Under the pieces are notes generated by a model that saw nothing but the letters and a program-made list of their open reading frames with translations, was not told the origin of the DNA and did not search any database. The position numbers and the translations under genes were made by a program. A stretch of DNA of 64,000 nucleotides from the NCBI GenBank assembly GCA_014377525.1, contig JACMPL010000017.1, forward strand, positions 1-64,000. Reading direction: 5' to 3'. Source of the DNA: Candidatus Saccharimonadota bacterium (lineage in GTDB: Bacteria > Patescibacteriota > Saccharimonadia > Saccharimonadales > UBA4665). Shown in pieces: positions 28,415-33,232 of this stretch; positions within the stretch are counted from its first letter, which is position 1, and every line of letters starts with the position of its first letter.

Positions 28415-29398
28415 ATGGCAGAAGCCAAGAAGAAAACCACCGCAAAAGCCAAAACTACCAAAGTTAAAGCAGCCATCGCCGATGATCAAGATATCGCAGT
28501 CATCGCCAGCGAAGTAATCGTTGAGACAATAGATGCTGAAACTAAACCGGTGATCACAGAAGCGCCAAAAGAAAAGAAGCTTGCTAAAGCCGGGAAGCGA
28601 AGTGCGAAGGCAATTGAGGCAGTCGAAGAGAAAGTCGCAAAAGAAGAGCGCAAAGAGTCTGATGATGATGCCGAGAAGCCGAAGCAACATAGTAATCCAA
28701 CCCGCTCGCGATTAGCTCGACGCGGTAAAAACTTCCGCAAGAATGCCGAAGCTGTTGAAGTTGGTAAAATTTATGAACTTAAAGAGGCTATAGCGATTGC
28801 GCAGAAGACCAGCCACGTAAAGTTTGATGCTAGCGTCGAATTACACGTCAATCTTAACGTTGACCCCCGCCACGCTGACCAGAATATCCGCGATAATTTA
28901 GTTCTTCCGGCTGGTACCGGTAAGTCTATCCGTGTCGCCGTCTTAACAGACGATGCTGCCGCTGCCACAAAAGCGGGCGCTGACTTCGCAGGAAACGAAG
29001 AACTACTGGCACAACTCGATAAGAATCAAATGAACTTTGATATCCTGATTGCCGTGCCAACTCTGATGGCAAAACTCGGTAAGTACGCTCGTATGCTAGG
29101 GCCACGCGGCCTGATGCCTAACCCTAAAAGTGGTACGGTTACGACCGATGTTGCCAAAGCCGTCAAAGAGGCCAAGGCTGGACGAGTTGAATATCGTGTC
29201 GACAGCACCGGTATTGTACACCTTGCAGTGGGCAAAGTCAGCTTTACCGAAGCACAGCTCATGGAGAATGTTCAAGCCGTGCTCCAAAGCATCAAAAACA
29301 ATAAGCCAGCAAGTGTTAAGGGTAGCTATTTTAAAGTAGTCCACTTAGCAACGTCGATGGGGCCATCAGTTACGGTTGATCTCTCAAGCGTCAACTAA
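28415..29398 (+). CDS. rplA: 50S ribosomal protein L1 with long N-terminal extension
   Basis: 327 residues. The L1 body starts near residue 95 ([20 protein letters not shown]) and includes [34 protein letters not shown] and the usual C-terminus. The first 95 residues are an extra Ala/Lys/Glu-rich, low-complexity tail ([20 protein letters not shown] onward) absent from typical L1 (about 230). ATG 28415 is chosen over ATG-like starts at 28385 because AAGGAGAA lies directly before it. It binds the L1 stalk of 23S rRNA and often represses its own operon. Confidence 0.95.
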
Positions 29399-29581: not shown

Positions 29582-30295
29582 GTGGCTGTTTTTAGCAATA
29601 CACAAATTCGTCAAGCGGTGGGCGATGGTCATATTGTTTGTCATCCGTTCGAACCAAAGCATGTCAGCCATGCTAGTTTAGATGTGACCCTTGGTTACTA
29701 TTACTACCGGACCGAGAAGATGCATGATCGAACTATTTATAACCCGTTCGATAAAGAAGACGTTGAGCGCTATTTCGATGGCCCTTACAAAGCCATGCCA
29801 CACGGCGAATGGGCTAAATTGAACGGTTTTAAGCCGGTTGCAAATATACCACTCGACCATCCTGTTATCAGCCTGAAGCCAGGCGAACGAATTCTAGCCC
29901 ATACCCATGAATTCTTTGGTATCAAGCCGCCTGGAGCCTGCGAAGTTCGAAGTCGCTCCAGCTGGGGCCGTAACGGCGTGGCAGTTTGCTTTGACGCAGG
30001 CTGGATTGACCCCGGTTATATCAACCGCTTAACGTTAGAAGTTTACAATCTAAACGAACGCGAAACGGTGTTATTGCCTGTTGGTGAACGCTTTGCTCAA
30101 ATTATTTTCCACCAAACCGGCGAAGTCGACGGTAATTATGGTGCTGGCCGGGACGGCAACTTCAGTGGTAAGTACCAGCAGGGAACCGACTTGGAAACAA
30201 TTATCAAAACCTGGTCGCCAGATATGATGCTGCCAAAAGCCTACAAAGACGTCCGCATGATGCCCGTAAAAATAGAGGGGCTGCCATATGAGTAG
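29582..30295 (+). CDS. dcd: dCTP deaminase-like dUTPase-superfamily enzyme
   Basis: A 237-residue Dcd/dUTPase-fold protein: HASLDVTLG, then EVRSRSSWGRNGVAVCFDAG with IDPGYINRLTLEVYNLN, then FAQIIFHQTGEVDGNYG and GKYQQGTDLE. The RSSxxR motif and the downstream glutamate (LTLEVYN) fit dCTP deaminase, which feeds dUTP/dUMP to thymidylate synthesis; a bifunctional deaminase-dUTPase is possible. It is longer than E. coli Dcd (193) through an insert near residues 55-80. The start is GTG with GGAGG. It overlaps the next gene by eight bases, forming a pyrimidine operon. Confidence 0.87.
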   Translation: MAVFSNTQIRQAVGDGHIVCHPFEPKHVSHASLDVTLGYYYYRTEKMHDRTIYNPFDKEDVERYFDGPYKAMPHGEWAKLNGFKPVANIPLDHPVISLKPGERILAHTHEFFGIKPPGACEVRSRSSWGRNGVAVCFDAGWIDPGYINRLTLEVYNLNERETVLLPVGERFAQIIFHQTGEVDGNYGAGRDGNFSGKYQQGTDLETIIKTWSPDMMLPKAYKDVRMMPVKIEGLPYE

Positions 30296-30881
30296 GGGGA
30301 AATTGATCGTCATAGAAGGAGCACCGGAAACTGGTAAACAGGACCAAGCAGAACTATTGCGAAATCATTTACGGAAAAAATTAGGCATTACAGCAATGTA
30401 CGAGGGTAACCTTCGTGGTAGTGATTTTGACGCCAAATCACTCGACTTATTAAAAGGTGTAACTGAAGAAGCAACACTGTCAAAACACCTTCTGAGAGCG
30501 GCTCGCTTGGCTCATCGCATGGAAACGATCGTTTCGCCAAGCCTCGAATTAGGCGAAAATGTTATTATGACCCGCAGTTGGCTCAGTATCGCCGTTGAAA
30601 ACCCACTTAGCGTCAGTGCTCTTAAACGGCGTCAGGCTGATACTATGGCAACCTATGGTCAATTTGTGCAACCGGATTTGTTAGTATTGCTGCTCGCTCA
30701 AGCTCCCAATCGATCAGCGCTCAGTACACGGTACAGCTCAACAGGTTTTGCAACCATAGACGCACGCTACGGAGTGTATGCTACTGACCCTAACATTCAC
30801 TCGATTATCGTCGACGCCCGAGATGTATTGCAATTCAAAATTCAGAACCTCGTCGAAACTACATTAGGCATTACACCATGA
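30288..30881 (+). CDS. degenerate thymidylate kinase paralogue
   Basis: A 197-residue protein with a thymidylate-kinase fold: KLIVIEGAPETGKQDQAELL at the P-loop, a helical core and VQPDLLVLLLAQ near the end. The Walker A ends GK-Q instead of GK-T/S, and the DRY/H catalytic segment is replaced by MTRSWLSIAV. So it is probably inactive as a kinase or has a changed substrate. It is sandwiched between dcd (8-base overlap) and the tmk-thyX fusion (ATGA overlap), suggesting a structural or regulatory partner of the real kinase. Confidence 0.75.
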   Translation: MSRGKLIVIEGAPETGKQDQAELLRNHLRKKLGITAMYEGNLRGSDFDAKSLDLLKGVTEEATLSKHLLRAARLAHRMETIVSPSLELGENVIMTRSWLSIAVENPLSVSALKRRQADTMATYGQFVQPDLLVLLLAQAPNRSALSTRYSSTGFATIDARYGVYATDPNIHSIIVDARDVLQFKIQNLVETTLGITP

Positions 30882-33232
30882 GTGGCAAATACATCGTAAT
30901 CGAGGGTCCTGAGGGTGTTGGTAAAACGACTCAGCTACTTGAGCTTGCGAGGCGTTTACAAGCCGCCGGGTTCCCGGTTCGTACACTACGGGAACCGGAT
31001 AGCCAGAGCGATCTGACCGCCCGTGCGATACGTCAGCTTACCCAAGATCCACGCTATCCCATGAACACACGTACTGAGGTGCTACTATACAATGCCGCAC
31101 GAGCCCAATCATTGCAGGTCATCAAGCAAAGTATCGATCAAGGCGTTATCTGCCTGGTAGATAGAAACTATCTGACAACCCTCGCTATTCAATATTACGG
31201 CCGTGGCGATGTACCGGATTACGCAACAATCAATACGATAATCAAATTTGCAGTCGGCGATATGGAGCCAGATCTCTGCATTGTGCTCGATGCGCCAGCT
31301 GCAATTCTGAAAGAACGTGTTGCTGGACGTTACGCCGGCGAACGGTTTGATGATCTTGATGAAAAATTTTTAGAGCGAGTCCGGGCTGGCTACTTATGGG
31401 AGGCCCATAACCGCAACCTTCCCGTCATCTTTGCAACCAAGCCAGCCCAGGAAGTTACCGAAGAAGTTTGGAAATTAGTAAGCCAAACGCTAGCTGCTCG
31501 CGAACCTACTTCTGGTCAGTCGTTACCACCAGTTGCACCAACCCATGAACCGCCCGTAAAATTATCGGCAACTCCAGCCGTTGTTTCTAGCCCTAATCAG
31601 TTACAAACTTTAGCTCAACAGAGCGTAGCGCAGTCAGCTACCCACCAAAAACTTGCCGAAAAAGGTGAGGATGGTCGCTTTACTATTACAACTGCTGGAA
31701 AAGCCTATCTTAAAACAGCCGTCACAAATGTCGAAGGTAACGTCTACGCCTTTACTGACAAACTAACGCCCGTAACCATTGCTGCTGCTATGGCAAGACT
31801 AAGCCGCCGCAGTGATGATATGCGTATCACTATCTTGGATGAATTTGCTGGCCAAGCAGGCAAAGATGAGAAGCTCTTACAACGCGTCATTAGCGCATAC
31901 GGCGATGATTCAGTTCAACAATTGGCAGGCATTCATATGGTTGTCGAAGGCGCTAGCAATCTACTTACTAAAAAATTAGAATGGGGTCGGCTCGGTTCGT
32001 ACCTCGAGCAATCGACTCGCTACATTTATTTTGATCAGAAGGACGACAGCGGTAAGTATCGTTACTTTGTGCCCAAGCAATTGAACGACGATGTCAAAGC
32101 AAAGTACATCAACGCTATGGATCAGATATTTGATCGTTATTCGACAATGGTACGCGAACTAACTAGCTACGTACGTAACAAGTCAGCCACCCCAGAAGTA
32201 GAGCGGGATGTCGCATGGCAGGGCGCCACTCGAGCCCAAGCTTGTGATGCTATCCGGCCAGTGCTACCAGTTGCCACAAAATCGACCGTTGGCATCTTTG
32301 CCTCTGGTCAAGCTCTAGAGAGCCTCATAATGCATCTGCTTGGCGATGAATTACTCGAAGCATCAGTGACAGGCAAATCAATCTTGGCCGAAGCCCGTAA
32401 AGTTGCACCCGCTTTCTTCGAACGAGCCGACAAACCGGAACGTGGTGGTGCTACTATTGCTTACCGCGCCGAAACAACAGCTCAAGTCGCCCAGTTAGCT
32501 AACAAGCACTTACCAACTAACCATGCCGTTGATAGTATCGAGGATGTTACACTAACAGATTTTTGGCCACGGAATGAGCTATCGCTTGTGCCAGACATGC
32601 TGTATGAACACAGTAACCTGTCACTGACAGCCATACAAGCAGCCGTTGGCACATGGACCTACGAACAAAAATTAGAAGTATTTGATGCTTACATGGGAGA
32701 TCGGCTTAATCGTCGACATCGGCCGGGCCGAGCAATCGAAAAAGCTCATTACAGCTGGGACCTTGTTTGTGATTACGCTATCTTCAGAGACTTACAGCGC
32801 CACCGAATGGTTGACGATCTAGCATGGCAGCAATTAACACCCCGCTATGGCTACGAAATTCCGAAGCTAGTTGAAGATGCCGGACTGGCTGATACATTTG
32901 AAGAGTGTTTTCAAATTAGCCTCAAGCTTCATAGCTTGCTCCAGCAATCTGGGTATGGTTTAGAGGCGCAATATGCCACGCTTCTCGGCCACCGTATGCG
33001 TTGGAAAATAACCTACAACGCCCGCGAAGCATTCCATTTGCATGAGATCCGGACGAGCCCTCAAGGCCATCCCGGCTACCGCAAACTAATCATGCAAATG
33101 CACCAGAAACTTGCCGAAGCTCACCCAATGATGGCCGAAGCAATGAAATTCGTTAATACCGGCGAAGACGAGGAGTTAACTCGACTTGCCGCCGAACGCT
33201 ACACGCAGTTCAAATTACAGCAGCTTGGCTAA
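30878..33232 (+). CDS. fused thymidylate kinase and tandem ThyX protein
   Basis: 784 residues. Residues 1-205 are an intact thymidylate kinase: VIEGPEGVGKTTQ (Walker A), TLREPDSQ, VDRNYLTTLAIQYYG and PDLCIVLDAPA. A Pro/Ala/Gln linker (210-255) follows. Residues 260-784 are two ThyX-like repeats: the first has KKLEWGRLGSYLEQSTRYIY, the second FRDLQRHRMVDDLAWQQLTP with RYGYEIP and MRWKITYNAREAFHLHEIRT. Only the second keeps RHR, and neither has the full RHRx7S. It could make dTMP from dUMP with folate and FAD, then phosphorylate it to dTDP. Confidence 0.85.
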   Translation: MSGKYIVIEGPEGVGKTTQLLELARRLQAAGFPVRTLREPDSQSDLTARAIRQLTQDPRYPMNTRTEVLLYNAARAQSLQVIKQSIDQGVICLVDRNYLTTLAIQYYGRGDVPDYATINTIIKFAVGDMEPDLCIVLDAPAAILKERVAGRYAGERFDDLDEKFLERVRAGYLWEAHNRNLPVIFATKPAQEVTEEVWKLVSQTLAAREPTSGQSLPPVAPTHEPPVKLSATPAVVSSPNQLQTLAQQSVAQSATHQKLAEKGEDGRFTITTAGKAYLKTAVTNVEGNVYAFTDKLTPVTIAAAMARLSRRSDDMRITILDEFAGQAGKDEKLLQRVISAYGDDSVQQLAGIHMVVEGASNLLTKKLEWGRLGSYLEQSTRYIYFDQKDDSGKYRYFVPKQLNDDVKAKYINAMDQIFDRYSTMVRELTSYVRNKSATPEVERDVAWQGATRAQACDAIRPVLPVATKSTVGIFASGQALESLIMHLLGDELLEASVTGKSILAEARKVAPAFFERADKPERGGATIAYRAETTAQVAQLANKHLPTNHAVDSIEDVTLTDFWPRNELSLVPDMLYEHSNLSLTAIQAAVGTWTYEQKLEVFDAYMGDRLNRRHRPGRAIEKAHYSWDLVCDYAIFRDLQRHRMVDDLAWQQLTPRYGYEIPKLVEDAGLADTFEECFQISLKLHSLLQQSGYGLEAQYATLLGHRMRWKITYNAREAFHLHEIRTSPQGHPGYRKLIMQMHQKLAEAHPMMAEAMKFVNTGEDEELTRLAAERYTQFKLQQLG

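Follow-up and report, generated by a model that had tools for sequence, protein, structure and literature searches.

Gene organization of the locus

We analyzed a 64,000-nucleotide window of a Candidatus Saccharimonadota genome (Patescibacteria, Saccharimonadales; assembly GCA_014377525.1, contig JACMPL010000017.1, positions 1 to 64,000) that contains a three-gene unit for deoxythymidine triphosphate (dTTP) synthesis. The last gene of the unit encodes a 784-residue protein in which a thymidylate kinase (TMK) is joined to two repeats of the thymidylate synthase ThyX. An initial annotation had proposed a one-operon dTTP route consisting of dcd, a tmk-like gene with a broken P-loop and the fusion gene. 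Open reading frames and profile matches confirmed all three genes and the overlaps between them (8 bases for dcd and the tmk-like gene, 4 bases for the tmk-like and fusion genes), and the one-operon route is supported.

29582..30295, + strand: dcd, dCTP deaminase, 237 residues, GTG start, first gene of the unit (PF22769, 115 bits)
30288..30881, + strand: degenerate TMK paralogue, 197 residues, a TMK homologue under the Pfam cut-off
30878..33232, + strand: TMK-ThyX-ThyX fusion, 784 residues (TIGR00041 and two PF02511 matches)

The unit is flanked by rplA, which ends at position 29398 and is followed by a terminator-like hairpin and T-run identified by reading, and by rplJ/rplL. The interval between rplKA and rplJL houses dTTP genes in most examined genomes of the order and constitutes a conserved neighborhood.

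The Dcd protein matched PF22769 with 115 bits (cut-off 27) and TIGR02274 with 92.2 bits, slightly under the cut-off of 92.8, and reading of the sequence identified an RSSxxR motif. It was the sole match to the dUTPase family in the window genome (G000; 97% complete, 40 contigs), in which no separate dUTPase was found; this absence is suggestive of a bifunctional Dcd that would produce dUMP directly, but only suggestive. No ThyA match was present in this genome. All PF02511 matches fell in the fusion, and the PF02223 matches were limited to the fused kinase domain (98.8 bits) and the degenerate copy (about 24.5 bits, under the cut-off). As the genome contains no other thymidylate synthase or above-cut-off dTMP kinase, we conclude that the thymidylate synthase and dTMP kinase activities of the fusion are probably real. 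Matches to the fusion in 56/60 relatives, a comparison set that includes five congeners, together with codon bias, led us to reject a chance or frame artefact.

Predicted fold of the tandem ThyX part

The domains of the fusion protein are listed below, where pLDDT is the predicted local distance difference test.

30878..31498, + strand: kinase domain, residues 1-207, type A TMK with intact P-loop GPEGVGKTTQ, REP, DRN and LID
31499..31645, + strand: Pro/Ala-rich linker, residues 208-256, predicted to be disordered (pLDDT <50 for residues 208-255)
31658..32512, + strand: ThyX repeat 1, about residues 261-545 (PF02511 at 31769-32410; predicted fold)
32540..33229, + strand: ThyX repeat 2, about residues 555-784 (PF02511 at 32708-33127; predicted fold)

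PF02511 matched the fusion twice, with 62.0 and 44.8 bits (cut-off 24.8). A phmmer search of the Protein Data Bank (PDB) with the fusion returned TMKs only, and the ThyX profile returned only weak ThyX matches, so that a fold comparison was needed for this part of the protein. An AlphaFold2 model of residues 261-784 based on 46 sequences had a pLDDT of 81 and a predicted template modelling score (pTM) of 0.81. Nearly all of the top 50 PDB matches of this model identified with Foldseek were ThyX structures at a probability of 1.00, with TM-scores to single ThyX chains of up to 0.70 over the length of one repeat. No tandem ThyX structure was present among the top 50 matches listed. The ThyX-like repeats of the initial annotation are thus borne out by the predicted fold.

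The ThyX active-site motif is divided between the two repeats

Single-domain ThyX proteins such as T. maritima TM0449 and the PBCV-1 enzyme are homotetramers of identical chains, each with an RHRx7S motif, and contain four identical sites. The window protein shares the fold and the combined active-site residues of these enzymes; however, its motif is distributed over two repeats. The relevant residues are given below with their equivalents numbered after T. maritima ThyX (Ser88, Arg90, Tyr91).

31982..32023, + strand: repeat 1 motif W369-G-R-x7-S379-T-R381-Y382; RHR lost, Ser88/Arg90/Tyr91 equivalents kept
32798..32806, + strand: repeat 2 R641-H642-R643; RHR kept, following loop without Ser at +8
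33017..33025, + strand: repeat 2 N714-A715-R716, Arg147 equivalent; repeat 1 counterpart A-S-G
33080..33082, + strand: repeat 2 R735, Arg174 equivalent (dUMP activation); repeat 1 counterpart Ser496

As the initial annotation had stated, neither repeat contains the full RHRx7S motif: repeat 1 has WGR-x7-S and repeat 2 has RHR without the serine. The explanation is that the motif is shared out over both repeats, and it becomes complete only when the two are combined. In a solved ThyX-inhibitor complex a single uracil pocket is formed by Gln75 and Arg182 of monomer A and by Ser88 and Gln89 of monomer B (PMC3498832), and the whole active site draws on three monomers (PMC11940539; PMC4913046). The S88A, R90A and Y91A substitutions slow the ThyX reaction, and Arg174 activates dUMP (PMC8316439). 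Because the pocket groups of solved ThyX come from different monomers, the two repeats would appear to have kept two different sides of one site.

The division is strict across the order, the window clade having EWGR..EQSTRY in repeat 1 and DLQRHR, NAR and GHPGYRK in repeat 2. It also extends to a wider set of 89 tandem ThyX proteins, both archaeal and bacterial, the latter from many phyla. The R78 position of repeat 1 is D, S or E in 89/89 of these proteins and never Arg, an observation unbiased by the searches. One search pattern demanded EKSxRY/SxRY in repeat 1 and the other RH in repeat 2, so that the retention counts are partly biased: E86, S88, R90 and Y91 of repeat 1 are kept in 89/89, as are R78, R80 and R147 of repeat 2, with H79 in 86/89 and R174 in 85/89. 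Unlike in the window protein, an Arg147-type residue is present in repeat 1 of 85/89. A different tandem lineage within the phylum (G271, G063 and G320) exhibits the same split, with HSH or HAH..SQRY followed by QRHR. From the sharing of this arrangement by all 89 proteins across many phyla we conclude that tandem ThyX is an old and widespread form and that the tandem is not special to the window locus. The initial annotation had suggested that the repeats may act as a covalent pseudo-dimer with one damaged and one working half. The pseudo-dimer remains our interpretation; the assignment of the damage to one half was incorrect, as both repeats are damaged, in complementary fashion, in every tandem of the set.

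Tandem ThyX proteins of 450-620 residues with two PF02511 domains occur in Patescibacteria, DPANN archaea, Cyanobacteria, Chloroflexi, Armatimonadota and Deltaproteobacteria, where repeat 1 has SxRY without RHR and repeat 2 has RHR and NxR. The window clade differs from these proteins by its WGR and GDDSVQQ sequences and by the lack of H53. Chlamydia also has a double-length ThyX (CT632). In one relative (G059), an intact tandem thyX gene is followed directly by a gene for a 333-residue protein that resembles an inactivated ThyX repeat 2 (L049:2615-3616).

One ThyX core with at least two fused kinase lineages

Residues 2-197 of the fusion matched TIGR00041 with 104 bits (cut-off 83.25), and the fused kinase matched P. 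aeruginosa TMK with E=6e-26. In the full-length model this domain was well folded, and Foldseek placed it with bacterial TMKs (TMt up to 0.89). The domain therefore resembles bacterial thymidylate kinase (P. aeruginosa 4e5u/3uxm) in profile score, fold and the presence of all motifs, in agreement with the intact kinase of the initial annotation, and differs in that a flexible linker connects it to ThyX.

Tandem ThyX frames of 450-620 residues were common in a survey of 380 genomes of the phylum, whereas the listed frames of at least 737 residues all came from the window's order, across which the fusion recurs. No TMK fusion was found among 80 named tandem ThyX loci. Thus, the kinase fusion, rather than the tandem ThyX, looks to be the feature specific to the order of this locus.

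Two types of kinase are fused within the order, type A (29 proteins, including that of the window) and type B (17 proteins; GTDGSGKGTQ...NRFTGSNMAHQGTKF), the latter in sister lineages. The median identity of the ThyX part between type A and type B fusions was 67%, comparable to the 67-68% observed within each type, whereas the kinases were 22% identical between types and 66-68% within them. The fused type B kinases form a clade (support 100/99) nested among the stand-alone type B kinases of other Patescibacteria and far from type A; the genes for these unfused kinases often adjoin tandem thyX. The identity values and the placement of this clade indicate that two or more distantly related kinases were joined to this one ThyX core. 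In the ThyX tree the fusions of both types were intermixed, which required five changes by parsimony; however, the one-clade alternative was not rejected by the approximately unbiased (AU) test (p=0.156). We therefore claim at least two recruitments, and a firm choice between a single kinase swap and several was dropped.

A third tmk lineage (type C, P-loop and DR intact) lies upstream of dcd, mostly beside rplA, in ten relatives with an intact fused kinase (L037, L056, L059, L060, L062, L064, L065, L071, L072 and L009). Our literature search, which was limited to open-licence papers, found no description of a TMK-ThyX fusion or of a split-site tandem ThyX. As far as found, tandem ThyX is widespread in genomes and little described, and its fusion to at least two kinases appears to be new.

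Decay of the fusion in relatives with another thymidylate synthase

Full ThyA was identified in 6/60 relatives. Three of these (G008, G033 and G037) carry thyA close to the fusion on the same contig, with the DHFR gene adjoining it in G037. The fusion in these genomes has shrunk to about 600 residues, most of repeat 1 is gone, and repeat 2 no longer has its RHR and NAR. Decay in G037 extends to the whole fusion, including the kinase motifs, with loss of the P-loop. A fourth ThyA-bearing relative (G046) had no match to the fusion. The ThyX part has thus decayed in three of the five ThyA-bearing relatives that have a fusion. Similarly, the fusion of G011, a genome that also encodes an unfused tandem ThyX in intact form, has decayed and lost precisely these ThyX residues. 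Decay or loss occurred in 4/6 genomes with ThyA and 3/55 without (Fisher p=0.0009, rows not independent); the corresponding values for the most complete genomes only were 2/4 and 2/44 (p=0.03, rows likewise not independent). The DR motif of the fused kinase is lost in G053 and G011, both of which have other TMK genes.

The remnants in the three thyA-bearing relatives are still open frames of about 600 residues (L245:8524-10344, L246:6005-7831 and L242:105-1901) despite loss of the ThyX catalytic residues, which may reflect either a non-catalytic role or slow decay. Acquisition of thyA together with folA at or close to the rplA-dcd-thyX-rplJ locus has been a recurrent event (G015, C5:39735-41113; G008, C1:895183-900527; G012, C50:27192-31945; G037, C91:2082-3442).

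The degenerate kinase gene

The tmk-like gene between dcd and the fusion gene (30288-30881) contains GAPETGKQ in place of GxxxxGK[ST], EGN in place of REP and TR in place of DR(Y/F). Its product scored about 24.5-25.1 bits against PF02223 (cut-off 27) and 34 bits against TIGR00041 (cut-off 83.25; E=2.3e-8), which places it below the threshold for TMK membership. Codon usage fits its own frame only, indicating that it is a real coding gene. The product shares 24% identity with the fused TMK domain, and the type A profile gave its best score (32.5 compared to 13.4 bits). Its branch length was 5.0 compared to a median of 0.59. No orthologue was found in the 60 relatives, and the best match in any of them was the intact tmk of G051, at 28% identity. 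In G125 and G051 a tmk gene likewise occupies the gap between dcd and thyX. The degenerate gene is probably a private, fast-diverging duplicate that lies outside the conserved machine, and its candidacy as a conserved partner was dropped.

Proposed mechanism and alternative explanations

We consider it likely that the 784-residue protein is a bifunctional enzyme in which an asymmetric pseudo-dimeric ThyX with a composite site carries a TMK domain on a flexible linker. In favor of this are the lack of any other thymidylate synthase or above-cut-off dTMP kinase in the genome, the predicted folds, the conserved division of residues and the loss of precisely these residues in relatives with ThyA close to the fusion or with a second tandem ThyX. 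Dcd, encoded in the same unit, would feed dUTP into the pathway, or dUMP directly should it be bifunctional. The fusion would then convert dUMP to dTMP and phosphorylate dTMP to dTDP, its TMK domain acting as the dTMP kinase of the cell. The two ThyX repeats would form an asymmetric covalent pseudo-dimer, and two polypeptides would jointly rebuild the ThyX pseudo-tetramer. The RHR helix and two arginines, that of NAR and the dUMP-activating Arg174-type residue, would come from repeat 2, and the Ser88/Arg90/Tyr91-type loop from repeat 1. The reciprocal sites would be dead; with one working site per chain, the pseudo-tetramer would therefore contain two sites rather than four.

Several observations weigh against this interpretation. 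TIGR02170, a one-domain equivalog model of 211 positions, scored only 45 bits against the fusion (cut-off 87.9). The H53 equivalent, which in ThyX stacks on the flavin/folate, is absent from both repeats (L349 and K622). Repeat 2 of the window clade contains a T-P-R-Y sequence three residues further on that may mimic S-x-R-Y, and the retention counts carry the search bias noted above. Two relatives with ThyA (G012 and G015) retain an intact fusion. Lastly, the window assembly has no SHMT or DHFR match, compared to 57/60 and 35/60 relatives with a match, respectively, which places the source of methylenetetrahydrofolate (CH2-THF) for the fusion in doubt; this may be due to an assembly gap or to true reliance on imported folates.

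Because T-P-R-Y could stand in for S-x-R-Y, it is conceivable that repeat 2, which also keeps RHR, NAR and the R174-type residue, is by itself a working ThyX and that repeat 1 is a mere structural scaffold. We regard this as improbable: E-x-S-x-R-Y of repeat 1 is invariant in the 89 tandem proteins and in all members of the order with an intact protein, T-P-R-Y was absent from the unfused relatives examined (G051, G054, G059, G068 and G011a), and repeat 1 is the part most completely lost in the three thyA-bearing relatives with decayed fusions. It is even less probable that the ThyX part is a relic in a cell that salvages host thymidine. An epibiont lifestyle is likely, SHMT was not found, and two relatives (G057 and the incomplete G027) have neither a fusion match nor ThyA. 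However, the motifs are strictly conserved even though the whole ThyX part spans 56-79% identity, and decay goes along with the presence of a further thymidylate synthase.

The remaining alternatives concern the kinases. The joining of at least two distantly related kinases to one ThyX core, in each case at the same end, together with the frequent adjacency of the unfused tmk and tandem thyX genes in other Patescibacteria, favors some benefit of linking both steps, and could reflect direct channelling of dTMP between the ThyX and kinase sites, as the initial annotation had suggested. Such a hand-over is not supported so far and we think it unlikely, since the roughly 50 linker residues are predicted to be disordered, separate-gene versions occur in relatives (G051, G054 and G011a), and proximity or equal dosage accounts for the pattern equally well. 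The fusion would most likely serve co-production and proximity rather than a fixed tunnel. TMKs are dimers, and the degenerate kinase could in principle form a regulatory heterodimer with the fused TMK domain; its gene looks translated, overlaps both neighbors, and has positional counterparts in G125 and G051. The partner role raised in the initial annotation has likewise found no support so far, as even the congeners lack an orthologue, the branch is long and the closest relative match is distant, and we consider it rather unlikely.

Implications

Taken further, this interpretation would make the protein a dTMP synthase and kinase in one polypeptide, based on a ThyX that is obligately asymmetric and has one composite site per chain. 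The independent recruitment of at least two kinase lineages would then reflect repeated selection for physical linkage, and the retained dead remnants would hint at a non-catalytic role; we judge the chances of this broader reading to be about even. The split motif explains why the double-length ThyX class appears to miss the signature motif of its family. ThyX is an antibiotic target that is absent from humans, and its multi-subunit site becomes dissectable in one chain, half by half. As at least two kinases occur on the same core, the benefit of linking ThyX to TMK becomes directly testable in E. coli.

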